Part shown: in pieces, positions 10,489 to 60,480 of the stretch
How positions within the stretch are numbered: position 1 is the stretch's first letter
How the letters are laid out: each line of letters opens with the position of its first letter
Assembly (NCBI GenBank): GCA_949126835.1
Contig: OX421505.1
Span: forward strand, 3,467,587 to 3,531,586
DNA length: 64,000 nucleotides
DNA from: Anisus vortex
Lineage: Eukaryota; Mollusca; Gastropoda; Planorbidae
Direction: 5' to 3'
Position numbers and translations under genes: made by a program
The notes under the pieces: generated by a model
Database searches by the model: none
The model's input: the letters and a program-made list of their open reading frames with translations, nothing else
Told to the model about the DNA's origin: nothing

Positions 10489-12057
10489 TCACTTAAAGTA
10501 AAAGGGTTTTACATCAGTATGAACAAGTTTGTGTTTTTTTAATGTTGAGCTATAAGAAAATCCTTTTAGACATATTTCACATTTAAATGGTTTTTCACCA
10601 GTATGAACAAATTTGTGTCGGTTTAAATTTGAGCTAAACGAAAATCCTTTTTGACATATTTCACATTTAAATGGTTCTTCAACAGTATGAACAAGTTTGT
10701 GTTGTTTTAATGTTGAGCTAAATGAAAATCCTTTTTGACATATTTCACATTTAAATGGTTCTTCAACAGTATGAACAAGTTTGTGTTGTTTTAATGTTGA
10801 GCTAAACGAAAATCCTTTTTGACATATTTCACATTTAAATGGTTCTTCAACAGTATGAACAAGTTTGTGTTCTTTTAATGTTGAGCTAAACGAAAATCCT
10901 TTTTGACATATTTCACATTTAAATGGTTCTTCATCAGTATGAACAAGTATGTGTTGTTTTAATGTTGAGCTAAACAAAAATCCTTTTTGACATATTTCAC
11001 ATTTAAATGGTTCTTCAACAGTATGAACAAGTTTGTGTTCTTTTAATGTTGAGCTAAACAAAAATCCTTTTTGACATATTTCACATTTAAAGGGTTCTTC
11101 AACAGTATGAACAAGTTTGTGTTGTTTTAATGTTGAGCTAAACGAAAATCCTTTTTGACATATTTCACATTTAAAGGGTTCTTCACCAGTATGAACAAGT
11201 TTGTGTCGTTTTAAATTTGAGCTATAAGAAAATCCTTTTTGACATATTTCACATTTAAATGGTTTTTCACCAGAATGAACAAGTTTGTGTCGTTTTAAAT
11301 TTGAGCTCTGAGAATATCCTTTTTGACATATTTCACATTTAAATGGTTCTTCACCAGTATGAACAAGTTTGTGTCGTTTTAAAATTGAGCTCTGAGAAAA
11401 TCCTTTTTGACATATTTCACATTTAAATGGTTTTTCACCAGTATGAACAAATAAATGTGTCTTTACATGTGATAGTGAAGTAAATGCTTTTTGACACATT
11501 TCACATTTAAATGGTTTTTCACCAGTATGAACAAATAAATGTGTCTTTAGTTGTGATAGTGAAGAAAATGCTTTTTGACACATTTTACATTTAAATGTGA
11601 TTTCACCAGTATGGAAAAGTTGATGAAGCATTAAGTGAGAGTTTCGAGAAAAGCCTTTTGGACATACTTCACAATTAAATAGTTTTTCATTTTTATACAT
11701 ATGATTGTTTAGGTGGTACTTTAAACTTTGCAAAAATGTTAAATTTTTTTGACATATCAAGCATTTATATAGTTTTTTAACAGTGTGAATTGTTAGGTGT
11801 GACCTCAAAAGTGAATCCGTAGAGAAAACCTTTTGACATATTTGACACTGAAATGATTTTTCGACTGTCTGAACAACTTGAAGGTTTTTTAAAGATGTAT
11901 AGTAAGAGAATTCTTGTTGAAATACTTGATCACTGTTATGAAATGTGTGATCTATCTCTGAAGAAATGTCTTCTTTCTTTACTTTACAGAACTCTTTAGA
12001 AGACTTGTATTCTTCACAATAAGAGGTGCTGTCTCTTTCTGATTTCTTAATACTTTC
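10489..12057 (-). CDS. C2H2 zinc-finger protein, last coding exon (16 fingers)
   Basis: The exon starts at 12057 after a good acceptor (TTTCTATTTCTAG) and runs open to TGA at 10489-10491, 522 codons without an ATG before the fingers. The first ~75 residues are charged and lack fingers. Then come 16 C2H2 units of CX2CX12HX3H form, starting with 'QCQICQKVF' and ending 'EICLKGFSYSSTLKKHKLVH'. Such arrays bind DNA in the nucleus, and target and function are not predictable here. Fingers 3-8 and the last two use TGEKP/TGEEP linkers. Most of the central fingers use TVEEP, and several are nearly identical (helices FSSTLKQH / FSSTLKEH), which implies recent unit duplication or conversion. The reading frame enters in phase 0, matching the donor of the exon at 34131-34317. 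The intron between is ~22 kb. The array ends abruptly, with decayed fingers downstream. Confidence 0.9.
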   Translation of the reverse strand, partial: ESIKKSERDSTSYCEEYKSSKEFCKVKKEDISSEIDHTFHNSDQVFQQEFSYYTSLKNLQVVQTVEKSFQCQICQKVFSTDSLLRSHLTIHTVKKLYKCLICQKNLTFLQSLKYHLNNHMYKNEKLFNCEVCPKGFSRNSHLMLHQLFHTGEITFKCKMCQKAFSSLSQLKTHLFVHTGEKPFKCEMCQKAFTSLSHVKTHLFVHTGEKPFKCEICQKGFSQSSILKRHKLVHTGEEPFKCEICQKGYSQSSNLKRHKLVHSGEKPFKCEICQKGFSYSSNLKRHKLVHTGEEPFKCEICQKGFSFSSTLKQHKLVHTVEEPFKCEICQKGFLFSSTLKEHKLVHTVEEPFKCEICQKGFLFSSTLKQHILVHTDEEPFKCEICQKGFSFSSTLKEHKLVHTVEEPFKCEICQKGFSFSSTLKQHKLVHTVEEPFKCEICQKGFSFSSTLKQHKLVHTVEEPFKCEICQKGFSFSSNLNRHKFVHTGEKPFKCEICLKGFSYSSTLKKHKLVHTDVKPFYFK

Positions 12058-16339: not shown

Positions 16340-17893
16340 ATGCCTCCAAAGAAAAGAAAACTAATTGGACAAAAGAATCCAAAGTCAATAAAAGCCAAAC
16401 GTTTGCGAAAAGCTGAAACTGTTGAACAAAGTGATGCTAGACATGACAAAGAAAGGGAAAGGGCCAGGACAATAAGAGCCATAGAGACATCAGAGGAGCG
16501 TCAAACACGACTTGAAACAATGCGAGAAAAAGCAAACACATTAAGAGCTACAGAGACTTCGGAGGAGCGACAAAAACGTCTTGAAAAAAAGCGGGAAGGA
16601 GAAACCACATCAAGGGCTACAGAGACTTCGGAGGAGCGACAAAAACGTCTTGAAAAAAAGCGGGAAGGAGAAACCACATCAAGAGCTACAGAGACTTCGG
16701 AGGAGCGACAGAAACGTCTTGAAAAAAAGCGGGAAGGAGAAACCACATCAAGTGCTACAGAGACTTCGGAGGAGCGACAAAAACGTCTTGAAAAAAAGCG
16801 GGAAGGAGAAACCACATCAAGGGCTACCGAGACTTTGGAGGAGCGACAGAAACGTCTTGAAAAAATGAAAGAAATAGCAACCACATCAAGAGATACCGAG
16901 ACATTAGAGGAGCGACAGAAACGTCTTGAAAAAATGAGAGAAATAGCAACCACATCAAGAGATACCGAGACATTAGAGGAGCGACAGAAACGTCTTGAAA
17001 AAATGAGAGAAATAGCAACCACATCAAGAGATACCGAGACATTAGAGGAGCGACAGAAACGTCTTGAAAAAAAGCGGGAAAGTGCAAACACGGCAAGGGT
17101 GTCACGAAGTTCACATTTGAATTTAGCTGGATTCCAATATGACCCCCAACATGATTACGCTCAACACCCTTATGTTGATATTGGAGGAATGATCTACATA
17201 TGTAAATATTGTCAAGCAAAGAAATTTAAAACAGAACCACCAGGAATGTTCTGCAGGAGTGGAAAAGTTAAACTTACTCCCCTGAATACACCGCCCAATG
17301 ATCTGCAGTTATTAATGTCTGGGACGACTTCAGAGTCAAAACATTTCCTGCGTAATCTGAGAAGATACAATTCATGTTTTCAGATGACGTCTTTTGGTGC
17401 TACCTCAATAGTGGATCTTAACGGTTTTGCAACAACTTTTAAAGTACAAGGACAGGTATACCACCGGATCGGATCTCTTCTCCCGCTTCCTGATCAAAAC
17501 CCACAATTTCTACAAGTCTACTTTATGGGAAATGAGCAGATTGAAGTAGATCATCGATGCGATTGTATCCCCGGGGTGAGACGCAATATTGTTTTAAGCT
17601 TACAAAGGATGCTTCATGAAAACAACCATCTCATTAATACTTTCAAAACTTCACTAGAAAACATGCCCAATGATGAATACAAGGTTGTTATCCGTGCAGA
17701 CAAAAGAGAGCCCGGTGAACACGAACGTCGCTTTAATGCTCCTCAAGTAAATGAAGTCGCCATCATTATGTCAGACCACGATTTCAATCAACGTGACATC
17801 ATAATTCAGAGGCGAAGTAATTCGCGAAGTAATTCGCATTTCAGAAACACATCGATCGTACGATGCTCTTCAATACCCGCTCATATTTTGTGA
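16340..17893 (+). pseudogene. Helitron Rep/helicase, N-terminal part
   Basis: The ATG at 16340 opens with a lysine/arginine-rich segment (MPPKKRKLIG, resembling a nuclear-localisation signal), then nine 23-residue repeats (residues ~46-252). A Helitron N-terminal domain follows with a CxxC zinc-binding pattern (ICKYCQAKKF, then MFCRSGKVKL) around residues 285-315. True coding continues to about residue 498. Just after 'QRDIIIQRR', near 17825-17838 at a 12-bp direct duplication (gcgaagtaattc twice), the frame shifts. The last ~19 residues up to 17893 are out-of-frame. The protein continues in the frame of the next piece. Confidence 0.85.
16475..17095 (+). repeat. 69-bp (23-aa) coding repeat, 9 units
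   Basis: Nine in-frame units follow the pattern RATETSEERQKRLEKKREG plus ETTS. Units 2-5 are almost identical and units 6-9 form a second subgroup (TLEERQKRLEKM.EIATTS). Their E/R/K heptad-like spacing predicts a charged helical or coiled-coil rod. The antisense strand is open too, giving a meaningless serine/arginine-rich shadow frame. Confidence 0.95.
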
Positions 17894-18431
17894 AGGCGAG
17901 GATGGATACCACTTCAACCTGAAGCAGGTTGATCCTGTAACAGGTGCACCAACTGTTAAAAAAGTTTCAGCATTAGACTTTTATGCATACAGGTTGATGA
18001 TCAGAAATGGATCCACAAATCATATTTTACAATGTCGACAACTATACCATCAATACGTTGTGGACATGTATGCAAAAATTGAGAGTGAGCGACTCCTGTA
18101 CATACGTCTAAATCAAAAAAAGCTGCGCGTGGAAGACTATATACACCTCAAGGATGCTTTGGTGAACGATGGGGACATTCAAAATATTGGGAAAGTTGTG
18201 ATTCTCCCAGCAACTTTCACCGGAAGCCCTAGACAGATGCAGGAATATGCACAAGATGCACTGTCTTATGTTCGATCCTATGGACGCCCAGACCTATTTA
18301 TCACATTTACGTGCAATCCTGACTGGGGTGAAATCAAAGAATCACTTTCATTTGGCCAGACGTCAAGTGATCGTCAAGACATAATAGCAAGAGTGTTTAG
18401 ACAAAAACAGATCAAACTCATTGATATTTAA
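17838..18431 (+). pseudogene. Helitron Rep, middle part
   Basis: Open from the frameshift at about 17838 (ISETHRSYDALQYP onward) to a stop at 18429-18431. It contains the Helitron-like N domain, with 'FYAYRLMIR', 'YHQYVVDMYAK', 'LPATFTGSPRQMQEYAQDA' and 'PDLFITFTCNPDW', all conserved blocks upstream of the HUH centre. The terminating TAA is in the same frame as the next piece, with 12 codons between them, so this is a single nonsense mutation and not a gene end. Confidence 0.85.
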
Positions 18432-20888
18432 ACTAAATATAATATTTTTGGAGAAACCCGATGCTGGATGTACTCCATTGAATGGCAGAAAAGAGGACTT
18501 CCACACTCCCACAATTTAATTTGGTTGAAGGAAAAACTACACCCAGTCAATATTGATCAAATCATATCTGCAGAGTTTCCAGATCCAGAGACGGACCCTA
18601 ATCTGTTTGCAGTAGTGAAGAAAAATATGATTCATGGACCATGCGGACATCTCAATACCAACGCACCCTGTATGAAAGACGGAAAATGCAGCAAAAAATA
18701 TCCTAGGAAATTAATTAAAGATACACAGACTGGTGAAGATGGCTATCCAGTTTACAGAAGACGCGCCCCACAAGACGGTGGTTTCACGGCAACAATTAAA
18801 ATTAAAGGCAACACGGAAGTCGAAGTGGACAACAAGTGGGTTGTTCCTTATTCTCCAATTCTTTCCAAAATGTTTCTCGCACACATAAATGTCGAGTACT
18901 GTAGCTCTGTGAAATCTATCAAATACATCTGCAAATATGTAAACAAAGGAAGTGACATGGCTGTCTTTGGAGTGACAGATGACAACGCTCTTGATGAAGT
19001 GTCTCGGTACATGATAGGGAGATACATCAGTAGCAACGAAGCGGTTTGGCGCATTATGAGTTTCCCAATTCACGAACGCCACCCGACAGTAGTTCATCTC
19101 AATGTTCACTTAGAGAACGGGCAGAGAGTTTACTTCACACGTGAAAACGCGCAAGCCCTTGCAGAAAGACCACCAAATACAACTCTGACAGCTTTTTTTC
19201 AATTATGCCAAAGTGACGCTTTTGCCAGGACACTGCTATATCCAGAAGTACCTCGCTTTTACACTTGGAATAAGTCCAAAAAGGTGTTTTGCAAAAGAAA
19301 ACAAGGTGTACCAGTTGCAGGTGAAGATGCCGTAGCAAGTGAAGCATTGGGTCGTGTCTATACAGTCAACCCAAACAACGCAGAGTGCTATTTTCTCAGA
19401 CATCTTCTTCATGCAGTTCGAGGACCTACTTCTTTTGAATATCTAAAAACTGTAAACGGTGAAGTTTGCCAGACTTTCAGAGAAGCTTGCCAAAGGCGTG
19501 GATTACTTGAAGATGATAGACATTGGGACCACACTTTATCAGAGGCTGTTTTAAGATCTTCTCCGGAGCAGATAAGAAATCTTTTTTGCATTATTCTTAC
19601 TATATGCAACCCATCCAATCCAAACGGTCTGTGGGAGAAGTATAGAGAGTCCATGAGCGAAGATTTACCACCTGATAACTCAATTAGAGCAAGTTCAACA
19701 CTTCGTTCAAATTGTTCTTCAGATATTTTCAACTTGGCCCTAATTCTGTTGGAGGATAAATGTTTATCAATAAACAACAAAACACTACCAGACTTAGGAT
19801 TACAGCCTCCTAAAAGAAATGAGCGGGATATTCTAGACAAAGACCTGATAAGAGAAAAAAACTATAACATTGAAGAACTACACAAATATGTAGAATCCAA
19901 CAAAGTTCTGTTAAACAGCGATCAAACTGAAGCATATGAGGTTATTATGAATCATGTCAATGAAGAAAAAGGAGGAATATTTTTTCTCGATGCTCCTGGA
20001 GGAACAGGAAAAACCTTCTTAATAAACATAATCCTTGCAGAAATAAGAATGAAACGTGATTTGGCAATCGCAATAGCATCATCTGGAATTGCTTCGACGT
20101 TATTAGATGGAGGAAGAACGGCGCACTCGGCTCTACGGTTACCTCTAAATATTGCCAATGAGCAACATCCAGCATGCAACATTAGCAAAGCCTCTGGCCA
20201 AGCAAAGGTTCTAAAAACCTGCAAAATAATTGTATGGGATGAATGTACAATGGCGCACAAAAAGTCACTTGAAGCTCTTGACTTAACATTGCAGGATTTA
20301 AGAGACAATAGTCAACTCATGGGGGGTGCTCTGGTGGTGTTAGCTGGCGATTTTCGTCAAACTCTTCCTGTCATACCAAGGTCAACACCAGCGGATGAAA
20401 TCAATGCTTGCCTTAAATCTTCTTTTCTTTGGCGAAATGTTAAAACAATAAAATTAAGAACAAATATGAGAGTGCAGCAACAAAAAGAAGCAGGTGCACT
20501 CATTTTTGCTGAAAATCTTTTACACATTGGTGAAGGGACTTACCCCACGCAGATGAAATCAGGGGACATTACCTTTCTTGATGACTTCTGCAAAAGAGTG
20601 ACATCCCTACAAGATCTTATCCACCAAGTGTATCCGAACCTTTCGGAAAATTACCTTAACAAGGAATGGCTGTGTGACCGAGCAATTCTTGCTTCTAAGA
20701 ACACATCTGTCAGTGAGTTGAATGGCCTGATTCAGGACATGATACCCGGAACATGTACTGAATACGCATCATTTGATTCCGTCACGGATGTCAATGAAAC
20801 CGTTAACTACCCTACGGAATTTTTTAATTCTCTGGACACACCCGGGATGCCACGCATAAACTTCAACTCAAAATTGGATCACCCATAA
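18432..20888 (+). pseudogene. Helitron Rep HUH nuclease and PIF1-like helicase
   Basis: Reading from the internal Met at 18468, the HUH motif is GLPHSHN (residues 10-16). The catalytic two-tyrosine motif is in 'SIKYICKYVNKG' (Tyr153 and Tyr157). After a linker comes the SF1B helicase: Walker A APGGTGKT (~509-516), motif II 'IIVWDECTMA' (Asp591-Glu592) and motif III 'LAGDFRQTLPVIP' (~626-638). The nuclease nicks and joins single strands, and the helicase unwinds them for rolling-circle transposition. All key residues visible in this piece are intact. The frame ends at 20888 through a one-base shift near 20866, not at the true C-terminus. Confidence 0.9.
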
Positions 20889-21952: not shown

Positions 21953-23477
21953 TTATAAAATAAACTCAAAACCATTCAATAGACTTCCTGTTCATTTGAT
22001 TTGGTTTCTTTATTTATTTTTTCATTGGCATAAAAACCAATATTTTATGGTCCCAAACACTAACCAATAACACTTTTCATGATCATTAAATTATACTGTG
22101 CATAGACCTAGGGGACGTCTGTTAAATTCTGCAAACATTTTACACCCCCGCCCATTAGCTAGCAATATATATTTTTTATGCTGCCAGTTGAAGTTTGAAA
22201 TAGAAAAGAGATTGAAAGGTCTTTAAATAATTTTTGAGCTTGTTGACAAATTTCAAATAGACTACAAAAAGACATTTTTGTCTAATCCGAGGATTTTAAC
22301 AATATTTCTAACTCTTTAGGTTTCTTTTTTACATCTATATATTTAAAGAATCTAATTTTACGATTCACTACTAATATCTCGATGCAATTATAAAATGGGA
22401 AATGTTCTATTGTTTAGCGGGATAGTGTAAACTAGTTGATAATTAGCCCCGTTCGTTCACAATTTCCTCTTGCCTCTCCCTTCCAGCACTTTATACTTAG
22501 TTGCCGTACCTGTCCACCTATATTTCAAAATTTTCACTGTTTGCCACCCCCCACCTCTATGCCACTGATAATACATTTTAACTCATACAATTTCAAAAAA
22601 ATTATACATTAAAACTTTAAAATTATGAAACAGATCTCTTTAATTGACCTCATTTTAACAATTCATCTATTAGTTTTAGCAAAAATATATTTGTTTATAA
22701 TATTAAAACTTCAGAGTAAATCTTCTTTTTCATGTGCACTATATGCCTCCCCCCCCCCCATAATTTGCACAATTCTACCCTATATCCCCCCCCCCCCGAC
22801 CATACTCTAGTTTTTATTTTGTTGAGATCAGAATAGAGAGGGTAGGCCTGTACACCAAAAAGTTGGCAAATCAATATAATCTTTGATTTTAATGGCAGGC
22901 TGTTGACAGATGAGTGTGTGGGTGTGTCATACAAATGCATGACTAATTTCAATTTTTTTAGTTATAAAATATATTGTAAAAAGTAATATTATTGATATTA
23001 ATTTATTTTGACCCCCCTTCCCTCCCCCATGTCAACAAGTGTCAAACTTCTTCACCCACCCCCCCTGTCTATTTTGATGACATAATTCATAATAACATAA
23101 TGGACAGCCCCCTATGAAGGCTAGCTGATTATGACTACTTGTCATTGGGCTATGCCTAGGCAATGCATATAAATTCACAGAATTATATAATCTTAGGAAA
23201 TAAACTTATAACAAATTGGGGATTTACAATACAATTTTAAGTTAGACCTAATATAAATCTTATTAGGATTTTTAGGCCTACGCATAACCACCATAATTTA
23301 ATCTATTTTTTTTTCAAAATTACTTAGCCCTACCGATGAAATATAAAACATATGCCATGGTAAAATAATACTTCAAGTGCAGATATACTAATAGTATAAT
23401 TTTTTCTAAGGAGTAAAATATTTCTTTCATTACCCATATTAGACTTGTCGTAGGCCTTTCGTTTGAGTATAGATAAT
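21953..23477. other. intron DNA with poly-C/poly-G tracts
   Basis: No gene is seen. Several C runs (22749-22760, 22787-22797, 23010-23030, 23060-23067) interrupt AT-rich DNA. It may be an old diverged relative of the C-run-bearing elements to the right, but no end is recognisable. Confidence 0.4.
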
Positions 23478-23984
23478 CCTATACTATAATACGAGTTAAA
23501 ATTGTATGTATATATATATATATATATAGTACCAGGTGACCGATCATTCGATCGGTAATAAAGAGCAGGCGCTTGTACCTTAACATAATGTGTATGTAAA
23601 ACAACAGGGCATAAATTTTAAAAATACGTCTTTACCAGACCAATAAATTGTATTTGTCTTTTTTTTTCCACTATAAATAACATGGGCTTTAAATTCTAAC
23701 ATTCGAAGCAGATTTTTATTTGTGCAGTCTAATATATAGATTTTGCCCGATAATCCCCCCCCCCCCCCCAAAAAAAAAAATAAACAACCCAAAAAAAAAA
23801 AAAAAAAAAAACACAAAAAAAATACAGCTTAATCTCATTTTAAACCCGAAAAAAAAATGTAGGCTAGAGTTGTCACTTTTAAACAGAAATATATGTCATT
23901 TATGTCATTATGTTATGTATTTAAAAAACTGAAAAGTTTAAATTTAAAATATCGTGAAATACGTTACAATAAAATTGTTAGTTC

Positions 23985-24125
23985 TTCTACCCCTTCCCCT
24001 ATTGGTTTACGCTCGTTTGAATCTGTGGCGCCTTCACTGTGGAACGGCTTACCTGAGACACTGAAAAACTCTGTCTAAAAAAAGGCATTCAAGAAGAATT
24101 TGAAGACTTTTCTTTTCAACTAAGT
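23985..24125 (+). pseudogene. LINE ORF2 C-terminal tail fragment
   Basis: In one frame this reads 'IGLRSFESVAPSLWNGLPE' and then, after a premature stop, 'KKAFKKNLKTFLFN'. This is the conserved extreme C-terminus of CR1-like LINE reverse transcriptases. It is part of TIR copy 1, and its counterparts are at 28650-28795 and 32635-32760 (minus). Confidence 0.7.
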
Positions 24126-24231
24126 TGATCAAGTACACATCCATCAGCAAAAAACGTGTTTAAAACTATTTTAAAATGTTATTGTCGTTTCGTGCCTCCA
24201 TCGGCCAAAACCTTGTTTAAAACTATTTTAG

Positions 24232-25006
24232 AGTGTACTTCACGTACTAAAGCATACATGAGATCAGGTAGAATACTTCACGTTCTTCTGCATACATAAT
24301 ATCAGCTAAAGTACTTCACATAATTCAGCATACATGAGATCAGGTAGAGTACTTCGCGTACTTCTGCATACATAATATCAGCTAAAGTACTTCACGTACT
24401 TCAGCATACATAAGATTAGGTTGAGTACTTCACGTACTTCAGCATACATCATATCAGGTAGAGAACTACACGTACTTTGGCATACATGAGATCCGGTAGA
24501 GTACTTCACATACTACAGCATACATGAGAACAGGTAGAGTACTTCGCGTGCTTCAGCATGCATGATATTAGGTTGAGTACTTCACGTACTTCAGCATTCA
24601 TCATATCAGGTAGACTACTACACGTACTTCGGCATACATGAGATCCGGTAGAGTACTTCACGTACTAAAGCATACATGAGATCAGGTAGAGTAATTCACG
24701 TACTTCAGCATACATGAGATCAGGTAGAGTACTTCGCGTACTTCAGCATACATGAGATCAGGTAGAGTACTTCACGTACTTCAGCATACATGAGATCAGG
24801 TAGAGTACTTCACGTACTTCAGCATACATAAGATCAGTTAGAGTACTTCACGTACTTCAGCATACATGAGATCAGGTAGAGTACTTCACGTACTTCAGCA
24901 TACATAAGATCAGTTAGAGTACTTCACGTACTTCAGCATACATCATATCAGGTAGAGTACTTCACGTACTTCAGCATACATCAATTCAGGTAGAGTACTT
25001 CACGTA
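24232..25006. repeat. 38-bp satellite, about 20 units
   Basis: Units follow 'agtacttcacgtacttcagc' plus 'atacatgagatcaggtag'. Variants (cgtactaaag, catatcag, cataagatcagtt) are interspersed, with a short higher-order pattern in the second half. Copies 3 and 4 of the host element have unrepeated sequence at this position. Confidence 0.9.
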
Positions 25007-25008
25007 CT

Positions 25009-27519
25009 CCTATACTATAATACGAGTTAAAATTGTATGTATATATATATAGTACCAGGTGACCGATCATTCGATCGGTAATAAAGAGCAGGCGCTTGTA
25101 CCATTACATAATGAGTATGTAAAACAACAGTGCATAAATTTAAAAAATACGTCTTTACCAGACCTATAAATTATATTTGTCTTTATCCTTTTTTTAACTA
25201 TGAATAACATGGGCTTTAAATTCTAACAGTCGAAGCAGATTTTTAATTGTGCAGTTTAATATCTAGATTTTGCCCGATAACCTCCCCCCCCCCCCCCCCC
25301 ACCCAAAAAAAATAAAAATTAATAAAAAAATAAAACAATAAAACAGCTTAATCTCATTTCAAGCCCTAAAAAACCCATGTCGTCTAGAGTTGTCAGTTTT
25401 AAATCCAACAGAAAAATATCTCATTTATGTCATTATGTTATGTATTTAAAAAACTGAAAATGAAAAGTTTAAATTTAATATATCGTGAATTACGTTACAA
25501 TTTTTAGTTCTTCTACCCTTTCCCCTACTTTAACAACTAACTGTCAAACTTTCTAGTGACCCCTCCCTCACCCCATTCAAGCTAACAATGAGTTACGGCC
25601 TGCAAGTTAATTTGATATAAATTAAAAAGGTGTACGAATAAATTTAATACATTTTTTCTAGTTTACCAGATTTCATATTGAATTCGTAACATAGTCGAAT
25701 AGTAATTTCTTACTTGGGCACATATATAAATCTAAAGTAAAGTTTGTAAATCACTTGTAAAAAATATCTTATACAAAAAGTATTTATTTATTATGTTCAA
25801 TGTTTTCAATGTATTATTCCAAACATTGTTTGACGAAAAAGTAAAAATATATAGTTTGGTGTAAACCTTTTTTAATATCCTCCATGTGTGTTACTATTTA
25901 AATAAACTATCGCGGCAAAATATAATGTCGATTAATTAAAACAATGGTATAATAAACATTTTAAAAAATTGTTTAAATTTTGAGCATTACACTAGTTAAA
26001 TACTAAATAATTAAAGTTGAAATTATGTTATTCATTGAAAGGACTGCAAATGAAAAGATTATAATATAGGCTACGTTAGATGATTTGTTTAATTCCCCCT
26101 TCCCCCCTTGTACCCCACCCCCCTCAATAAAACTAACAGTACATTACACTTCTGACTATTGTTATAAGGAAATTACGAATAAATTGAATACATCTTTTCT
26201 AGTTACCAGATTTCAAATTGACAATGTTAACATATTCTAATATATCTTACTTTGTTTGGTCTATATAAGCAAATCATACATATTTTAATGAAACATTTGT
26301 ATTGAATAAAAAAAAAGTGGATACTAATACAGTGTATACTATTTATAGTGTACAGTATACTACTACATTGTATACTATAAACGGTGAAGTGTATACTGCT
26401 ACAGTGCACACTATATACGGTGAAGTGTATACTGCTACAGTGTACACTATATACGATGTAGTGTATACTGCTACAGTGTACACTATAAATGGTGAAGTGT
26501 ATACTGCTACAGTGCACACTATATACGGTGAAGTGTATACTGCTACAGTGTACACTATATACGGTGTAGTGTATACTGCTACAGTGCACGCTATATATGG
26601 TGTAGTGTATACTGCTACAGTGTAAAACTATATACGGTGTAGTGTATACTGCTACAGTGTACACTATATACATTGTAGTGTTAACTGATTCAGTGTACAC
26701 TATATACGGTGTAGTGTATACTGCTACAGTGTACACTATATTCGGTGTAGTGTATACTGCTACAGTGTACACTATATACGGTGTAGTGTATACTCCTACA
26801 GTGTATATTATATACGGTGTAGTGTATACTTCTACAGTGTATACTAGACTATATTCAGTTATAAAGTTTTTGTACCAAAAAAAAAAGATTTCGACGTGTT
26901 TTTTTTCTAAACAATGTTAGATGAAAGAAAGTTAAAAATAGACCTTTAGTTTGGTAAAACTTCATCTAATCTTGTTATTATATAAAAACGGCAAACTATT
27001 ATCTCACTATTAATTAAAACGTAAATATTTTATTTGTTTTAGTCTAAAATATATTGAAGTTTAATCTAAAATACATTGAAAACATTATAATCTAAATAAG
27101 CCTCGAGGGCCGCATACTATTATTTGTCACCCACTGGCTGTAGTTTGCACACCCCTGCATTACATAAATTACACTTGGTCTTGCTTTAAATTATATCTGT
27201 TATCGGTGCCGGTGCGCAACAATAGTCTAAACAATAAATTAAACCTCTTTCTGTTGCTGTACGGGTATTTCCGAAACGTCATAACTGCGACGCAACAAAA
27301 CACCGCTCTTGAAAGCCGCACTACTCGTGGGTCGAGAAATGGCATGTTTTCACGGCCAAAATCAATTATCTACGATAATTCTAAAGGGTATTTTTGTCTA
27401 ACGTTCGTTTCCGATTTTTAATTGTGAGGCCGAAAAGCTGTAGATTTTTTTTTAGGTGAAACCAGTCGTACATTAAAACATGAAGATAATCGTTAGAGCG
27501 CTTTTGAAGAAAATTTCCA

Positions 27520-27563
<44 letters not shown>

Positions 27564-27590
27564 CAATTTTAACTCGTATTATAGTATAGG
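25009..27590. mobile_element. TIR element family X, copy 2 (both ends present)
   Basis: This is the most complete unit. 'cctatactataatacgagtt' starts at 25009 and its reverse complement ends at 27590, so the terminal repeats are inverted (about 30 bp plus TA runs). Subterminal features are the ACCGATC/GATCGGT hairpin at the left and 'cgcttttgaagaaaatttcc' at the right. There is no transposase frame, so it is non-autonomous at ~2.6 kb. It lacks the LINE insertion and the SINE/Helitron-like insertion present in copies 3 and 4, so it shows the empty sites. The superfamily is not identified. Confidence 0.8.
26330..26855. repeat. 36-bp array in TIR copy 2, about 14 units
   Basis: Units follow 'tatactgctacagtgtacac' plus 'tatatacggtgtagtg'. 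The 36-bp length is a multiple of three and the unit is partly palindromic (GTGTACAC), so long open frames appear on both strands (VYTATVYTIYG-type peptides). They are by-products, not genes. Copies 3 and 4 have only about three units here. Confidence 0.9.
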
Positions 27591-27960
27591 ATATATATAT
27601 AGTACCAGGTGACCGATCATTCGATCGGTAATAAAGAGCAGGCGCTTGTACCTTAACATCATGTGTATGTAAAACAACAGTGCATAAATTTTAAAAATAC
27701 TTCTTTACCAGACCAATAAATTATATTTGTCTTTTTTCTTTTTTTCTACTATGAATAACATAAGCTTTAAATTATAACAGTCCAAGTAGATTTTTATTTG
27801 TGCAGTCTGATATCTAGATTGTGCCCAATAACCCCCCCCCCCAAAAAAAAAAACAAAAAAAAAAAACAACAGCTTAATCTCATTTTAAACCAAAAAAAAA
27901 AACATGTAGGTTAGAGTTGTCAGTTTTAAATCCGACAGAAATATATGTCATTTATGTCAT

Positions 27961-28590
27961 CAAATCGCCAGGCTACAACGAATACATAAAAGTACTGCGC
28001 GTTTGTTTATGTGCAAGTCTAAACGAGACTTGGGAACTGCCCTTCTACGCTCGCTCCACTGGCTCCCCGTGAAAGCCAGAATTGAGTATAAAGTGGCGCT
28101 ACTTTGCCATCAGTGCATTTTTAATAACGAGTTTCCGTCCTATCTCAATTTAAGGCACTAATCAGACCTTATGTCCCGCAAAGAACACTTCGTTCTGCAA
28201 ACTCATCGCTTCTGGAAGAGCCCCGTTTCTCTCTGACGACCGTTGGCCTTAGAGCCTTCTCAGTATCCGGTCCGAAGGTGTGGAGTCAACTTCCCATTCA
28301 ACTGAGGCGAACAAGCTCTACTGTTACTTTCAAAAAGAACTTAAAAACTCATTATTTCAATATTTACCTTCGATAACATTTAACATGCTTTAGAAACTTA
28401 CTGTCTTATTTATGGGTTGGGTCGGTTAATGCTACATTTATTTGTTTTGTCTTTTTTTTAATCATCAATTTAGCTCTGTCACCTGGCCTAGTGTAATATC
28501 CGTATTCTTAGTTGTATGTTAAACGCGCTCTGAGCTTACATTATGTTTGTTGGCAGCGCTATACAAATATTATTATTATTATTATTATTT
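27961..28590 (+). pseudogene. LINE ORF2 C-terminus and 3' tail, inserted in copy 3
   Basis: Frames read 'TALLRSLHWLPVKARIEYK'-type sequence, 'YVPQRTLRSAN', 'EEPRFSLTTVGLRAFSVSG' and 'QLPIQLRRTSSTVTFKKN', the C-terminal region of a CR1-like reverse transcriptase. A frame break lies near 28155. It ends in a 3' UTR with 'ggcagcgctatacaaatatt' and an ATT microsatellite (28568-28588), typical of these LINEs. Copy 2 lacks it. The mirror copy is at 32826-33455. Confidence 0.85.
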
Positions 28591-28999
28591 AAAAGACTGA
28601 AAATGAAAAGTTTAAATTTAAAATATCGTGAATTACGTTACAATTTTTAGTTCTTCTACCCCTTCCCCTATTGGTGTACGCTCGTTTGAATCTGTGGCGC
28701 CGTCACTGTGGAACGGCTTACCTGAGACACTGAAAAACTCTGTGTCAAAAAAGGCATTTAAGAAGAATTTGAAGACTTTTCTTTTCAACTAAGTTGATCA
28801 AATACACATCCATCAGCAAAAAACTTGTTTGAAACTATTTTAAAATGTTATTGTCGTTTCGTGCCTCCATCGGCCGAAACCTTGTTTAAAACTATTTTAG
28901 AGTGTTATTGTCGTTTCGATTTTGTGAGCGCGCTGAGCATGCTTTTATTAGCATGGAGTGAGGCGCTATATAAATGACCAATTAATTAATTAATTAATT
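28591..28999 (+). pseudogene. second LINE tail in copy 3
   Basis: Carries 'GVRSFESVAPSLWNGLPE' and 'SVSKKAFKKNLKTFLFN', then a 3' UTR with 'tgaggcgctatataaatgac' and an AATT microsatellite (28980-29000). It belongs to the base TIR element since it is also in copy 1. Confidence 0.75.
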
Positions 29000-29135
29000 A
29001 ACTTTAACAACTGTCAAACTTTCCTATAACATAATGTCAATTTTTTCAACTCCCTCCCTCAACCCATTCAAGCTAACAATGAGTTACGGCCGGCAAATAT
29101 GTTTGATAGGAATTAAAAAGGTCTACGAATAAATG

Positions 29136-29346
29136 TAAATCGGGTAAAAAAAATAGGCATAGTCTAACTGGAGAATCGAACCCGGGTCGCACGCACAGCA
29201 GTCCTCTACGTTAACAACTTAGCTAGAGAAGGCACATGTCAGATGTAAAAAGCTATTAGACAGTATATAGGACTAGGCCTAAATAAGTCAGTGACACAAT
29301 AGGGATCCGTGGGGACACAAACACGATATTTTTATATATAGAGATT
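29136..29346 (-). mobile_element. tRNA-SINE / Helitron-like insert in copy 3
   Basis: Read on the minus strand it begins 'tctatatataaaaatatcgt' near 29342, a start common among Helitron-like elements. It then has a tRNA-like block with 'ggttcgattctccagtt' (B box) near 29165-29195. Copy 2 has the uninterrupted sequence, so this is an insertion. The mirror copy is at 32062-32275. Confidence 0.65.
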
Positions 29347-32061
29347 TTCAATGTTTTCAATGTATTATTCCAAACATTGTTTGACAAAAAAGTAAAAAAA
29401 TATAGTTTGGTGTTAACATTATCTAATATCCTCCATTTGTGTTACTATTTATAATAAACTATCGCGTAAAAAATATTATATTGATTAATTAAAACAATGG
29501 TATGATAAACATTTTTTATTTTTTATTTTATTTTGAGCATTAAACTTAAATACTAAATAATTAAAGGTGAAATTATGTTATTCATTGAAAAGACTGCAAA
29601 TGAAAAGATCATAATATAAATAGGATCTGTTTAATTTCTCCCCCCCCCCCCCCCCGCCCCTTAATAAAACTAACAGTATATTACACTTCTGACTATTGTT
29701 ATAAGGAAAATACGAATATACTGAATTTACATCTTTTCTAGTTTACCAGATTTTAAATTGACAATGTTAACATATTCTAATATATCTTACTTTGGTAGGC
29801 CTTTATAAGCAAATCATACATATTTGTAATGAAACATTCATTGAATTTTTAAAAAAGTGGATACTAATACAGTGTTTATTATTTACAGTGTAGAGTATAC
29901 TGCCACATTGTATGCTATATAAAGCGTAGTGTATACTGCTACAGTGAACACTATATACAGTGCAGTGTAATCTGCTACGGTGTACACTATATACAGCTAT
30001 TCATTGTTTAAACACAAACAAGTTTTAGAGGTGTTTTTTTTTCAAAAAATGTCAGATAAAAGAAAGTTAAAAATAGACCTTTAGTTTGGAGAAACTTCAT
30101 CTAATTCTGTTATTATTTAAACGGCAAACTATTATCTGACTATTAGATAATTCGTAAATATGTATTTGTTTTTCTTTTTTTTTTTTATTTAATCTAAAAT
30201 AAATTGAAGTTTAATCTAAAATATATTGAAGACGAGGGCCGCATACTATCATTTGTCCGCCCGCGCGTTACCCACTGGTTTTAGTTTGGACACCCCTGCA
30301 TTACATAAATTACACTTGGTCTTGCTTTAAATTATTTCTATCATCGGTGCGCAACAGTAGTTTAAACAAGAAATTAAACTTCTTTCTGCTGTAGTAAGCC
30401 TACGGGTATTCCCGAAACGTCATAACTGCGACGCAACAAAAAACCGCTCTTGAAAGCCGCACTACATGTGGGTCGAGCAATGGCATGTTTTCACGGCCAA
30501 AATCAATATCTACGATAAATCTAATGTGTATTTTTGTTTAACGTCTATTTCCGATTTTTATTTGTGTGGCCGAAAAGGTGTAGATTTTTTTTTAGGGGAA
30601 ACAAGTCGTGCATTAAAACATGAAGATAATCGTTAGAGCGCTTTTGAAGAAAATTTCCAGACATATATATATATATATACATACAATTTTAACTCGTATT
30701 ATAGTATAGGATATATATATGGAAATTTTCTTCAAAAGCGCTCTAACGATTATCTTCATGTTTTAATGCACGACTTGTTTCCCCTAAAAAAAAATCTACA
30801 CCTTTTCGGCCACACAAATAAAAATCGGAAATGAACGTTAGACAAAAATACGCTTTAGATTTATCGTAGATAATTGATTTTGGCCGTGAAAACATGCCAT
30901 TGCTCGTCCCACGTGTAGTGCGGTGTTCAAGAGTGGTGTTTTGTTGCGTCGCAGTTATGACGTTTCGGGAATACCCGTAGGCTTACTACAGCAGAAAGAA
31001 GTTTAATTTCTTGTTTAAACTACTGTTGCGCACCGATGATAGAAATAATTTAAAGCAAGACCAAGTGTAATTTATGTAATGCAGGGGTGTCCAAACTACA
31101 GCCAGTGGGTAACGCGCGGGCGGACAAATGATAGTATGCGGCCCTCGCGGCTTATTTAGATTAGAACGTCTTCAATATATTTTAGATTAAACTTCAATAT
31201 ATTTTAGATTAAATTTAAAAAAAAAAGAAAAACAAATACATATTTACGAATTATCTAATAGTCAGATAATAGTTTGCCGTTTAAATAATAACAGAATTAG
31301 ATGAAGTTTCACCAAACTAAAGGTCTATTTTTAACTTTCTTTTATCTGACATTTTTTGAAAAAAAAACACCTCTAAAACTTTTTTTGTGTTTAAACAATG
31401 AATAGCTGTATATAGTGTACACTGTAGCAGATTACACTGCACTGTATATAGTGTTCACTGTAGCAGTATACACTACGCTGTATATAGCATACAATGTAGC
31501 AGTATACTCTACACTGTAAATAATAAACACTGTATTAGTATCCACTTTTTTTAAAAATTCAATGAATGTTTCATTAAAAATATGCATGATTTGCTTATAA
31601 AGGCCTACCAAAGTAAGATATATCAGAATATGTTAACATTGTCAATTCGAAATCTGGTAAACTAGAAAAGATGTAAATTCAGTATATTCGTATTTTCCTT
31701 ATAACAATAATCAGAAGTGTAATATACTGTTAGTTTTATTGAGGGGCGGGGGGGGGGGGGGGGGAGAAATTAAACAAATCATCTAACGAAGCCTATATAT
31801 ATTATGATCTTTTCATTTGCAGTCTTTTCAATGAATAACATAATTTCACCTTTAATTATTTAGTATTTAAGTTTAATGCTCAAAATAAAAAAAAAAATGT
31901 TTATCATACCATTGTTTTAATTAATCAATATTATATTTTGCCGCGATAGTTTATTTTAAATAGTAACACAAATGGAGGTTATTAGATAATGTTAACACCA
32001 AACTATATTTTTTTACTTTTTTCGTCAAACAATGTTTGGAATAATACATTGAAAACATTGA

Positions 32062-32275
32062 AAATCTCTATATATAAAAAGATCGTGTTTGTGTCCCCAC
32101 GGATCCCTATTGTGTCACTGACTTATTTAGGCCTAGTCCTATATACTGTCTAATAGCTTTTCACATCTGACATGTGCCTTCTCTAGCTAAGTTGTTAACG
32201 TAGAGGACTGCTGTGCGTGCGAGCGGGTTCGATTCTCCAGTTAGACTATGCCTATTTTTTTTACCCGATTTACAT
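32062..32275 (+). mobile_element. tRNA-SINE / Helitron-like insert in copy 4
   Basis: Mirror of 29136-29346: 'tctctatatataaaaagatc' at the start, then a tRNA-like head with 'aacgtagaggactgctgtgc' and 'ggttcgattctcc', ending in a T run. Pol III promoter boxes can be made out, but the fold of a functional tRNA is not supported. Confidence 0.65.
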
Positions 32276-32444
32276 TTATTCGTAGACCTTTTTAATTCCT
32301 ATCAAACATATTTGCCGGCCGTAACTCATTGTTAGCTTGAGTGGGTTGAGGGAGGGAGTTGAAAAAATTGACATAATGTTATAGGAAAGTTTGACAGTTG
32401 TTAAAGTTAATTAACTAATTTTATTAATTATTAATTGGTCATTT

Positions 32445-32825
32445 ATATAGCGCCTCACTCCATGCTAATAAAAGCAAGCTCAGCGCACTCACAAAATCGA
32501 AACGACAATAACACTTTAAAATAGTTTTAAACAAGGTTTCGGCCGATGGAGGCACGAAACGACAATAACATTTAAAAATAGTTTCAAACAAGTTTTTTGC
32601 TCATTGATGTGTATTTGATCAATTTAGTTGAAAAGAAAAGTCTTCAAATTCTTCTTAAATGCCTTTTTTGACACAGAGTTTTTCAGTGTCTCAGGTAAGC
32701 CGTTCCACAGTGAAGGCGCCACAGATTCAAACGAGCGTACACCAATAGGAGAAGGGGTAGAAGAACTAAAAATTGTAACGTAATTCACGATACTTTAAAT
32801 TTAAACTTTTCATTTTCAGTCTTTT
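32445..32825 (-). pseudogene. second LINE tail in copy 4
   Basis: Mirror of 28591-28999 with the same C-terminal LINE motif and the 'gcgctatataaatgacc' tail. Confidence 0.7.
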
Positions 32826-33455
32826 AAATAATAATAATAATAATAATAATATTTGTATAGCGCTGCCAACAAACATAATGTAAGCTCAGAGCGCGTTTAA
32901 CATACAAGTTAACTAAGAATACGGATATTACCCTAGGCCAGGTGACAGAGCTAAATTGATGATTAAAAAAAGACAAAACAAATAAATGTAGCATTAACCG
33001 ACCCAACCCATAAATAAGACAGTAAGTTTCTAAAGCATGTTAAATGTTATCTAAGGTAAATATTGAAATAATACGTTTTTAAGTTCTTTTTGAAAGTAAC
33101 AGTAGAGCTTGTTCGCCTCAGTTGAATGGGAAGTTGATTCCACATCTTCGGACCGGATACTGAGAAGGCTCTAAGGCCAACGGTCGTCAGAGAGAAACGG
33201 GGCTCTTTCAGAAGCGATAAGTTTGCAGAACGAAGTGTTCTTTGCGGGACATAAGGTGTGATTAGTGCCTTGAGATAGGACGAAAACTCGTTGTTAAAAA
33301 TGCACTGATGGTAAAGTAGCGTCACTTTATACTCAATTCTGGCTTTCACGCGGAGCCAGTGGAGCGAGCGTAGAAGGGCAGTTCCCGAGTCTCTTTTAGA
33401 CTTGCACACAAACAAACGCGCAGTACTTTTATGTATTCGTTGTAGCCTGGCAATT
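32826..33455 (-). pseudogene. LINE ORF2 C-terminus, inserted in copy 4
   Basis: Mirror of 27961-28590. Here the frame from 33415 to 33047 is open for 122 codons (ALLRSLHWLRVKARIEYKVT through TFKKNLKTYY), better preserved than in copy 3. It corresponds to the end of a CR1-like reverse transcriptase and the 3' tail with an AAT microsatellite. It is a truncated retroposon and not a host gene. Confidence 0.85.
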
Positions 33456-34130
33456 TAATGACATAAATGACATATATTTCTGTTGGATTTAAAACTGACA
33501 ACTCTAGCCTACATGTTTTTTTTTGGGTTTAAAATGAGATTAAGCTGTTGTTTCTTTTTTTTTTGGTGGGGGGGGGGGGGGGGGGGGGGTTATCGGGCAA
33601 AATCTAGATATTAGACTGCACAAATAAAAATCTACTTCGACTGTTAGAATTTAAAGCCCATGTTATTCATAGTAGAAAAAAGAAAAAAGACAAATAGGCC
33701 TACAATTTATTGGTCTGGTAAAGAAGTATTTTTAAAATTTATGCACTGTTTTTTTACATACACATGATGTTAAGGTACAAGCGCCTGCTCTTTATTACCG
33801 ATCGAATGATCGGTCACCTGGTACTATACATTTATCTATATAAAGTATTCTGTATATGTAAAGGGTTTACATTGCATTTTTGCATCCCTAGCAAAGTGGT
33901 TTGAATCTCCAACTGGCTTACGGTAGATCTGGGTTTGTTTCCCCACTGATAACATTACCCAGCACCACAAAATGAGTCGCAAGTCACATTTCATTTGGAT
34001 CATTTTGAGTTATTAAGTGCATAATTAGGCATTTTAATGCAAAATTCAATGGTGAAAACTGTTAAAAAATTGGACGTTATAATTACCTAATAGTCAACTA
34101 TTAAACACTACAAAAAGTGTCAAAGCTTAC

Positions 34131-49133: not shown

Positions 49134-50447
49134 ATGTCACTAACCCAGTTAAAAGTGATGGCAAACTCTCTGGGAATAGACATTACTGAAGTTACACCAG
49201 TAAGGAGTAAATTGATTCAAGATATTAAGGACTGTTTGAAAAAACATGACGCAATGCTTGAAGAAAATACTATGAATAATGAAGAATCAGTGGTTCTCAA
49301 TGTATCAGAAACCCTGAAAACAGACATAAATAACCATGAATTTAAAATGAATGAAAATGAACTAAGTGCGGACATGAAATTCCAGTTAGAATTGAAGAAG
49401 CTAGAAATTCAATTAGAGAGTAAAAGGATAGAAGCAGAGAAAGAGAAAGAGAAAAGACTGGGGGAATTGGAAAAAGAAAGAATCGCTAGTAATGAAAGGA
49501 TTGAATTAGCAAGGTCTCGTTCGTCAACTCATTCGATTCTGGAAACAAATAATATAGAACTATATAAGTTTAAAAAGCATGTTCCAAGCATGAAGGGCAT
49601 AGACATTGATGAGTTCTTTATGGTCTTCGAGAGAAACTTGATCGATTATAAATTTCCTGAAGATAAGAAAGCAGTACTTTTACGTTCAGCGCTAACAAAA
49701 GGCAAGGCTCTAGATGTTGTATTAAATCTGACTCCAGAGGAATGCAATAATTATGAACTAATAAAGAGCAGGGTACTATTGAGTTATGTTCTAACTCCAG
49801 AAAAGTATCGAAAGTTATATCGTGAGTTTAAGAAGAAACCAGAAGTTTCACATGTTGACTTCCTGAGATTAGAGAAAAAGTATTTAGACCGATGGTTACG
49901 ATCTAAGAATGTAAATAAAGATTATGAAAAACTATATAATCTCATACTGATGGAGGATTTCAATGAGAAGATTCGCACTGATGTAAAAGTTCATTTGGCT
50001 GATCGTGGTATTGAAATAGCAGAACAAGCAGCAGTTAAAGCCGATGAATACGTCATTATTCACCCGCATAGCCATTATTTTCAAAATGACAGAACAAGTT
50101 TAAGGACTCAAAACAGTAATACAGAGAGGAAGTTAAGATCGACAGAGGATAAAAGTAAACAAAAAGCCGATAAACAAGAGAATTCAAGTTTTGTACAAAA
50201 GATAATTACCTATACCTTTTGTAAGAAAGATGGACATTTCAAAGAGAATTGTTGGAGTCTACATAAAGAGAAAAGACCCATTAAAAACAAGAATAACGTG
50301 GTTTTATCGCACATCGCCGTACAAACTGAAACTCAAATAAACAAAACTGCCCACAAAAGAAAAGAAAGACATCTGATGTTAGTCATGAGGAGATGGCGAA
50401 ACACGCATGTCCAAGTTGCTCAAAGTCAGAAAGAGTCTTTAAAATGA
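49134..50447 (+). pseudogene. Gypsy gag polyprotein
   Basis: ATG at 49134. An N-terminal helical part (LTQLKVMANSLGIDI) leads into a lysine/glutamate-rich coiled-coil-like stretch (residues ~75-125). A capsid-like domain (~135-320: 'DIDEFFMVFERNLIDYKF', 'KGKALDVVLNLTPEE', 'YRKLYREFKKKP') is followed by a single zinc knuckle near residue 363 (TFCKKDGHFKENC). The first cysteine of the knuckle is replaced by tyrosine (TAT codon), so metal binding is probably lost. Past about 50365 (an A-rich run) the residues up to the stop look out of frame, while the -1 frame continues sensibly into the protease. Gag packages the element RNA in cytoplasmic particles. Confidence 0.8.
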
Positions 50448-50791
50448 AGACCGAGGCTATTGAACATTCTAGTTTCAACTCCAAAGGGAGTGTGACAGAT
50501 GAACAATCAGTAAATAAAACGTTTACTTATGGAGGCAGTAGTGTAGCAAGAAACTCAGTAGGCAGAGAACTACCCGAGTGCATGCTATCGGATGTTAGCG
50601 AGGGCTATGTGTCACCTATAGATAATCAAGCTAGAGAATGGAAGATTAAAATTCTACGTGACTCCGGTGCTGATATATCTTTACTGTTGAAGAATACTGT
50701 ACCAACGTCGAAATTGACTCATACAGGCCAGTATGCCTTAATCAGTACTATGGCTGGGACACTTACGGCACCGTATACAGTTGAAGTGTAA
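50393..50791 (+). pseudogene. Gypsy aspartic protease, N-terminal part
   Basis: In the frame -1 to gag. After a polar linker with 'CPSCSKSERVFKMK' the active-site block is 'ILRDSGADISLLL' (DSGA form of the catalytic triad, about residues 84-91). It overlaps the end of the gag frame by 55 bp. The frame stops at 50789-50791, and the protease continues in the next frame ('FTGPVIVGIV', 'YRGISLLLGSDIA'), so one base has been lost or gained near 50785. The enzyme would cut the element's polyprotein. Confidence 0.75.
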
Positions 50792-52505
50792 TTACTTCAC
50801 TGGACCTGTTATTGTTGGGATAGTGAAGAAATTTCCCTACAGAGGCATTTCATTACTTTTAGGAAGTGACATTGCCAAGAATCAGGTACATCCTGTACTT
50901 AAAGAACCCAAAGACTCTGTTCAGTGTAGGAATACTGAAAATTCAGTATGTGTTATCACCAGAGCTATGAAGAAACAGCAGATGACTGATGAATCGACAA
51001 AGAAACCAGAACCGACACCAGAGATTGACTTACAAGCAACCTTCATGGCGGATGTTTTAGGTGGTCACTCAAGTCATACTGATCAAAGTAATTTGTCGCC
51101 TAGACAACTACTCATTCTTGCTCAAGGCAAAGATCCAGAGGAAGCAAAGAATGAAGGAGAGTTAGAAACAATGGCCGCAGGTTATTACCTGAGGGACGAG
51201 TTGTTGATGAGGAAATGGAGAGGGAAAGAAAACGACGATGAAACATGCAGCGAAGTACATCAAATCGTGGTACCCAATGTATACCGCAAGGACATACTAC
51301 ATATGGCCCATGATTCACCGTATGCTGGTCACCTAGGGATACAGAAAACTTTCGACAGGATTCTTCCATATTTTTTCTGGCCTGGCCTACGTCGTGACGT
51401 CACATCGTTTTGCAGATCATGTTATGTCTGCCAGATGGTCGGCAAACCGAATCAGACCATTCCGGTAGCTACTCTACGACCCATACCAGCATTCTCAGAA
51501 CCCTTCAGTCACATCATTATAAACTGCGTCGGTCCGTTGCCTAAAGCTAAGGCTGGCCACCAGTATCTGTTCACTATTATGTGTTCGGCAACGAGATTTC
51601 CAGAGGCTATTCCTCTACGTAGCATCAATGCCGACAAAATCTCTGATGCACTTATCGGATTCTTCACCCGATATGGACTTCTGAAAACCGTGCAGTCAGA
51701 TCAAGGTTCAAATTTCACATCGAAGTTATTTCGCCAAGTCTTAGAACGGCTAGGTATTCGTCATGCAGTATCGAGTGCATATCATCCACAGAGTCAAGGC
51801 GCACTGGAACGATACCACCAAACATTGAAAAATATACTCCGTACTTTCTGTTTCGAGCATAACGACGACTGGGATCGTGGTATTCCCTTCGCACTCTTCG
51901 CAACCAGAGAGGCTGTACAAGAATCTCTTGGTTTCAGTCCTTTTGAACTGGTATTTGGACACACAGTTCGTGGACCACTAAAGCTGCTACAAGAGACATG
52001 GTTATCATCCACTGAAGACACTGGTCTACTAACATATGTGGAGAACTTTAGAAATAGACTGTATAATGCATTAAAAGTTGTCAGATCTAATCTTTTGCAG
52101 GCACAAGACAAGATGAAGGTCTATTATGACGTCAACGCAAGAACCCGTATCTTCCAACCTGGTGATAAAGTTCTCATGCTGACGCCACTGTCTGGTCAAC
52201 CCCTGAGTGCTAAGTTTACAGGACCCTACGAGGTTATGGCTAAGCTTAGTGAGGTTAACTTTCTTGTAAAGACCCCTGATAGACGGAAATCGCAACGAGT
52301 GTGCCATATCAATATGTTGAAACCATATATTACCAGAAAAGAACAAAATGTTGTTGCCTCGGTAAACTTTGTTATTAAAGTCGGGAATAATTCACCCGAA
52401 ATTGAACGTGAATTGGCAGAAAACAAATTACAAATCACAAAAGTTTTAAAAACCCTTAATGAAAAATTTGGAACATTTACCCGCTTGCGAACAATCCGCT
52501 ATTAA
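50781..52505 (+). pseudogene. Gypsy protease end and integrase
   Basis: Residues 1-40 finish the protease. A linker (~45-120) has no RT signature. Then comes the integrase: HHCC zinc-binding domain (HDSPYAGHLG then CRSCYVC, ~178-222), DDE core (~240-370) and a chromo-like/GPY C-terminal part (FQPGDKVLMLTPLSGQP, then KFTGPYEVM). In the core the second and third catalytic residues are present (QSDQGSNF and GALERYHQ, 35 residues apart). The first, expected in 'IIINCVGPLP', is Asn instead of Asp (AAC codon), so strand transfer should be dead. No RT or RNase H lies between protease and integrase. The frame ends by a shift near 52477. Confidence 0.85.
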
Positions 52506-60404: not shown

Positions 60405-60480
60405 TAACGTAGCGGACTGCTATGCGTGCGACCAGGGTTCGATTCTCCAGTTAGACTATAGGCCTACCTTTTTTTCTACA
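60405..60480 (+). repeat. tRNA-derived SINE-like fragment
   Basis: 'aacgtagcggactgctatgc' and 'ggttcgattctccagttaga', then a T run. Same family as the inserts in the palindrome arms. The region 60171-60404 holds nothing recognised. Confidence 0.6.

Follow-up and report, generated by a model that had tools for sequence, protein, structure and literature searches.

Canonical Helitrons such as Helibat and Helraiser are characterised, in the portions available of two papers on them (PMC4067079, PMC4778049), by a 5′ TC, by insertion between A and T without duplication of the target, by a hairpin some 10 nt short of the 3′ end and by the existence of non-autonomous copies. These features are shared by an element family of the planorbid snail Anisus vortex, copies of which make up a palindrome of about 6.2 kb in a stretch of 64,000 nucleotides (GenBank assembly GCA_949126835.1, contig OX421505.1, positions 3,467,587 to 3,531,586 of the forward strand; hereafter the window, to which all plain coordinates refer). 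Unlike the canonical elements as portrayed there, the present one has GTAC in place of CTRR and carries close to its 5′ end a (TA)n tract which is entered by its own siblings. The palindrome is very probably a nested self-insertion of this one non-autonomous Helitron-like element, with a reverse-oriented copy lying in the 5′ (TA)n of a sibling.

Adjacent and tandem Helitrons of maize and bats lie head to tail in direct contact according to the accessible parts of two reports (PMC2267711, PMC5876387), where a later insertion at the A|T of the neighbour's 5′ end is one of two published readings of the adjacent maize copies. Head-to-tail copies in direct contact are also found here; unlike in those accounts, however, insertion takes place within the 5′ (TA)n, head-to-head palindromes are common (82 junctions), and there are 326 head-to-tail junctions without a 5′ terminus, a figure that is not a count of events, as many of the 100 junctions listed are identical and the whole may consist of copies of a few. 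The microsatellite-targeting transposons MuTAnT, Micron and TAFT likewise insert into simple repeats such as (TA)n, but in contrast to the Mutator-like MuTAnT, as far as the excerpted description goes (PMC4486113), the present element itself carries the repeat that is hit. With Helentrons/HINE and Helitron2 it has in common the 3′ palindrome and, in some of them, internal tandem repeats; however, in the sections at hand (PMC4067079) Helentrons are said to prefer TT and to have subterminal inverted repeats, and Helitron2 to have asymmetrical terminal inverted repeats, whereas the present element inserts at A|T and has unlike ends. Literature searches over 5.39 million open-licence papers brought up no title or abstract opening that deals with the insertion of Helitrons into the (TA) tract of their own 5′ end. 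In 2010 Coates reportedly described a lepidopteran Helitron-like family that lies in (GAAA)n.

The two arms of the palindrome, 27597-30658 and 30721-33836, face each other across a spacer of 62 bp (the left arm ends with GAAGAAAATTTCC at 30658, the right one starts with GGAAATTTTCTTC at 30721). A sequence-only reading of the window had already recognised the long near-perfect palindrome of about 6.2 kb, its spacer and its construction from transposable-element copies, all of which are borne out by self-BLASTN, with one inverted match of 27585-33840 against its own reverse complement (94.1%, 6341 columns including gaps), and by aligning the arms directly with each other (96.7% identity, with 100 substitutions among 3057 aligned pairs, and 21 indel events totalling 100 bases). 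All remaining inverted matches above 100 bits in the window are pieces of the same element family. What that reading had overlooked is a larger nest of four element copies (23477-33824, 10.3 kb), of which the palindrome forms the right part, and the term composite transposon used there is not supported, as the arms abut across 62 bp and enclose no cargo.

Both arms are single copies of a non-autonomous Helitron-like element roughly 3.1 kb long, which begins with A|TCCTATACTATAATACGAG... followed by the (TA)n tract and ends with a hairpin followed by GTAC|T. A first family search of the genome, in which 13 of 4379 first-look candidates were scored, gave at least 53 matches, and the material compared comprised 17 fetched stretches and 38 short loci from the same genome. 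Copies at separate loci agree on the extent of the element, A|TCCTATACTATAATACGAGTTAAAATTGTATG(TA)n[G]TCTGGAAATTTTC to ACCGATCGAATGATCGGTCACCTGGTAC|T, with GTCT before GGAAATTTTC being variable (absent from the copy that forms the right arm and from one copy at locus L013). The 3′ terminus can be placed at GTAC|T because independent 3′ flanks share ...CTGGTACT up to the point where they diverge. Of 54 distinct 5′ sites in the fetched loci and the window, 53 have an A before the TC terminus, and GTAC is followed by T at 34 of 34 3′ sites, both counts comprising exact motif matches only and including some sites within stacks or nests. A Helitron was suggested by a scan of the window which gave 11 hairpin-plus-CTRR-T sites, four of them being the 3′ ends of the element. 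The 3′ hairpin has a stem of 7 bp and a loop of 4 nt, lies 10 nt from the end, within the approximately 10-12 nt typical of Helitrons, and has a folding energy of -8.6 kcal/mol (z = -2.4; 5/200 shuffles equally good). Genome-wide, the 5′ terminus has 1369 matches at no more than three mismatches, compared to 0 for the reversed pattern.

In fetched stretches with a single copy (L018, L019, L020), the 5′ motif of 31 bp occurs once, at the 5′ end of the copy only, while the hairpin and GTAC form its other end, and the flanks of L018 show no target-site duplication; the absence of both terminal inverted repeats and, at L018, of a target duplication is what is expected of a Helitron. These observations also bear on the proposal that a cut-and-paste transposon with terminal inverted repeats (TIRs) is present and that the copies are a multimer of such an element. 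In favour of this proposal, copy 1 of the nest (see below) has this 31-bp motif on either side, in inverted orientation, but the one-sided motif of the lone copies, the missing duplication at L018 and the A and T at the 5′ and 3′ junctions speak against it, and it must be regarded as extremely improbable. The TIR element of the sequence-only reading is thus replaced by one with unlike ends (5′ TC..., 3′ hairpin and GTAC) and an A|T site, in which the apparent repeats are the 5′ ends of neighbouring copies. A TIR element with repeats of 31 bp had likewise been the first reading in the present analysis, and was dropped after inspection of the single copies and of the tree described below.

The arrangement of these ends allows the nest to be taken apart. 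The 31-bp motif occurs four times without mismatch (plus strand at 23478 and 25009, minus strand at 27560 and 30680), as does the 3′-end motif (minus strand at 23529, 25052 and 27602, plus strand before 33824). The right arm is copy 3 (30712-33824, plus strand), which has a sound 3′ end (hairpin ACCGATC-GAAT-GATCGGT, GTAC|T) but no 5′ terminus, as it starts at 30712 within its own leftover (TA)n, from where it continues through the body. The left arm is copy 2 (27602-30711, minus strand, 3110 bp), which has both ends and whose 5′ end, up to 30711, makes up most of the spacer, so that in the palindrome centre (30659-30720) copy 2, with its (TA)n and its 5′ terminus, abuts the leftover (TA)n of copy 3. 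To its left lies copy 1 (25052-27591, minus strand, 2540 bp), also with both ends, with an A preceding its 5′ end (27591) and a T following its 3′ end (25052), and with an enlarged 36-bp minisatellite (26316-26846; 14.7 units, versus 3.9 in each arm). Directly beyond copy 1, on the plus strand, there is a displaced 5′ end consisting of the 32-bp terminus and (TA)6 (25008-25051). If 25008-25051, 27592-27601 and 30712 onward are joined, a normal 5′ end with a continuous TA tract results, and therefore copies 1 and 2 lie in the 5′ tract of copy 3. Farther out follow a truncated copy 0 (23529-24236, minus strand), with its 3′ end at 23529 and its 5′ part absent, a 38-bp minisatellite of 20.4 units (24235-25008) in which copy 0 terminates, and another 5′ terminus TCCTATACTATAATACGAGTTAAAATTGTATG of a plus-strand copy, preceded by A (23477-23508), which is possibly the outermost 5′ end of the host. 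The first 5′ terminus of the host may be either that at 23477 or that at 25008.

Very probably, a plus-strand host copy, with its 5′ end at 25008-25051 and/or 23477 and its body at 30712-33824, was hit inside the (TA)n tract 32 nt within its own 5′ end. Copy 2 and copy 1 entered there on the minus strand at A|T steps, with the truncated copy 0 farther out. As copy 2 entered in the orientation opposite to the host, its 5′ end came to face the host body across 62 bp, and the palindrome is the result; insertion in the same orientation would instead be expected to yield a head-to-tail order. The ends of the element, its A|T junctions, the host end divided by the inserts, the separate relationships of the arms and the recurrence at 82 junctions are shown by the data. 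By analogy with elements that have such ends, transposition would presumably be of the rolling-circle type and driven by the Rep/helicase of a related autonomous Helitron. In copies 2 and 3, no stretch between stop codons exceeds 135 amino acids.

Long palindromes with a short spacer are often read as inverted duplications whose arms are kept alike by conversion. In such an inverted duplication a U-turn of replication or repair at the (TA) tract would have copied one arm into the other, with mutations accumulating later, and the high identity over the full 3.1 kb together with the short (TA)n-flanked spacer would fit a snap-back of this kind, as would a 9-bp match, TATAGATAA / TTATCTATA (23468 and 33832), which flanks the nest in inverted orientation. 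However, in their direct alignment the arms differ from each other by 3.3%, whereas among 28 extracted units the closest of the other 27 was at 1.84% from the right arm (L022_4818p) and at 2.31% from the left arm (L012_7270m). In a quick tree search on 26 units (copy 1 and L024_6089p being left out as divergent), a clade of the two arms was rejected by the approximately unbiased (AU) test (p = 0.0118, rounded below to 0.012; lnL lower by 56.3). On these comparisons the arms are not sisters but two members of a dispersed family. Apart from the rejected clade (p = 0.012) and the nearest relatives of both arms being located elsewhere, an inverted duplication leaves unexplained why the right arm lacks just the 5′ terminus, why such a terminus is found across the inserts, and why the same arrangement with a displaced 5′ end recurs at 45 of 82 junctions in the genome (see below), and it is therefore highly improbable. 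After the TIR element, a duplication that takes in the 9 bp common to both flanks had been the next reading in the present analysis, and it too was given up in view of the lone copies and the tree.

Gene conversion between the arms, which would keep an old palindrome alike, would have made them each other's nearest relatives, which they are not. With copy 1 or copy 0 as outgroup, 61 differences could be examined over 1907 columns (right arm ancestral at 35, left arm at 24, neither at 2). The polarised differences are somewhat clustered (20 runs over 59 sites, p = 0.007), as conversion might produce, but the derived states are not significantly skewed (35 versus 24, p = 0.19), and differences do not thin out towards the centre (Spearman p = 0.30). 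They are present near the centre and along the whole arm, but their spread is not even (variance/mean 2.67 over twelve 250-bp bins, p = 0.002). Conversion is accordingly very unlikely to account for the palindrome, although the clustering might reflect minor exchange within the family. Since both arms have closer relatives elsewhere in the genome than in each other, the difference of 3.3% neither dates the palindrome nor calls for conversion, and the earlier choice between a young palindrome and one kept alike by conversion is not supported.

A search of the 863 Mb genome (159 contigs) revealed 82 head-to-head junctions on contigs C1 to C18 (control 0) as well as 94 split host termini that are followed by the 3′ end of a copy in opposite orientation (control 0). 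An A precedes the 5′ end at 81 of the 82 junctions, and the residual tracts at these junctions are 7-31 nucleotides long and odd in 80/82, as would be expected if each insert enters at an A|T step. At 45/82 junctions a displaced 5′ end lies no more than 13 kb away on the predicted side and strand (mean 0.025, maximum 1 in the randomly shifted control), compared to 2/82 on the other side and the same strand, and the distances to the partners at the 45 junctions are mostly near 3.1, 6.2, 9.4 or 12.5 kb, corresponding to one to four inserts. There are in addition six tail-to-tail sites (12 matches of a self-complementary pattern). This recurrence also argues against the palindrome being an assembly artefact, i.e. 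a mirrored element or an inverted haplotype copy, as had been suspected from the sequence. These structures may indeed strain assembly, and an 86-kb contig, C37, begins inside such a palindrome; however, 100 substitutions and 21 indels separate the arms, no match between the outer flanks exceeds 32 bits, the nearest relatives of both arms are other copies, and the same build recurs at 82 junctions, so that an artefact deserves scarcely any credence. Neither a composite transposon nor conversion nor an artefact is needed to explain the locus.

Several observations weigh against the self-insertion scenario or its details. Firstly, for 37/82 junctions the 13 kb on the predicted side contain no exact displaced 5′ end on the predicted strand, so that their hosts are truncated, diverged or of other origin. 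Secondly, a displaced 5′ end lies on the predicted side but the other strand at 5/82 and on the other side and the other strand at 15/82 junctions, and 19 junctions directly abut such a site, which might represent nests within nests. Thirdly, the 82 junctions are not all independent, as those at C7:46098083, 46109556 and 46120572 are identical and about 11 kb apart, probably stemming from one palindrome that was later duplicated in tandem. The A|T rule has exceptions as well, with a C before the 5′ end at 25008, a T at C7:12424542 (1/82 head-to-head junctions) and a G after GTAC at C4:30780335 (1/100 listed head-to-tail junctions). Finally, the 3′ terminus is GTAC and not the canonical CTRR, and no autonomous partner was identified, no genome-wide search for one having been made. 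Membership in the Helitrons is nevertheless good except for the 3′ CTRR. The window does contain broken Helitron genes with a PIF1-type helicase (open reading frames (ORFs) 16340-17893, 17994-18431 and 18468-20888, the last with 68% identity to a protein of the frog Ascaphus truei), but no related 5′ end was found near this helicase.

A second case of self-insertion is found at C15:21.14 Mb (L014), where the 5′ tract of a plus-strand host is interrupted by one minus-strand copy and the two pieces of the host, when joined, again give a normal 5′ end. The inserted copy differs from the lone copy L018 on contig C3 by 0 substitutions and 8 gap positions over 3151 columns, whereas the host is about 9% distant from the arms in the window and forms a mosaic with respect to its own insert (96.6% identity over 1427 columns near the 3′ end, 84-86% in the other large blocks). 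Because the insert matches L018 without any substitution while the host is diverged, this palindrome is the product of a recent transposition, with a diverged copy as its host.

Of the 94 split host ends, 55 keep exactly a 12-bp remnant next to the terminus, nearly always (TA)6, which puts the point of re-entry by siblings some 44 nt inside the 5′ end. While nested transposons are ordinary, such repeated re-entry of an element's own 5′ tract, often at one position, is unusual. It is conceivable, though somewhat short of an even chance, that the (TA)n 32 nt inside the 5′ end serves as a built-in and nearly position-specific landing site, that the family builds both palindromes and head-to-tail order by repeated self-insertion, and that concatemer-like arrays are in part stacks of self-insertions. 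Same-orientation self-insertion may be the source of most of the head-to-tail junctions. Tandem Helitron arrays have been cited as support for the rolling-circle mode, as stated in the part of the paper available (PMC5876387), and self-insertion offers a second possible origin for them. In this genome palindromes arise by repeated transposition, and arm identity therefore reflects the age of the family and not that of the palindrome. The split host end provides a simple diagnostic for this origin, and the element family constitutes a natural series of similar palindromes for the study of their stability.

As to the 5′ termini at large, stacking is common: the first 100 listed form 67 clusters, 22 of which contain two to five termini. 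Stacks of three to four 5′ termini, spaced by about 30-38 bp, are present at the multi-copy loci L010, L013, L014, L022 and L023, and a single one at each of L018, L019 and L020. The contig that starts within a head-to-head palindrome of the family does so at C37:1-8000 (L017).

Both arms also contain an insert (27962-28590, plus strand, mirrored in the right arm) which ends in (TTA)n and is absent from copies 0 and 1. An ORF fragment of this insert, which has no Pfam match and only unnamed homologues, resembles the end of a non-LTR reverse transcriptase ORF. An ORF of 122 amino acids in the arm has homologues in 5/15 candidates, none of them named. A stretch within the arm, 29146-29213, recurs in inverted orientation at 60405-60474 of the same window (70 columns, 90%) and resembles a piece of a tRNA-derived SINE, although no tool gave a match for it; neither Rfam at the gathering score nor ARAGORN had a hit in the window, and Rfam at E up to 1 gave one snoRNA match over 29000-29400 (E = 0.89). 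Elsewhere, the window harbours a C2H2 zinc-finger ORF (10489-11808, minus strand, 439 amino acids) with an 84-bp repeat, and Gypsy-like retroelement ORFs (49134-52505) with integrase domains within 50781-52505.

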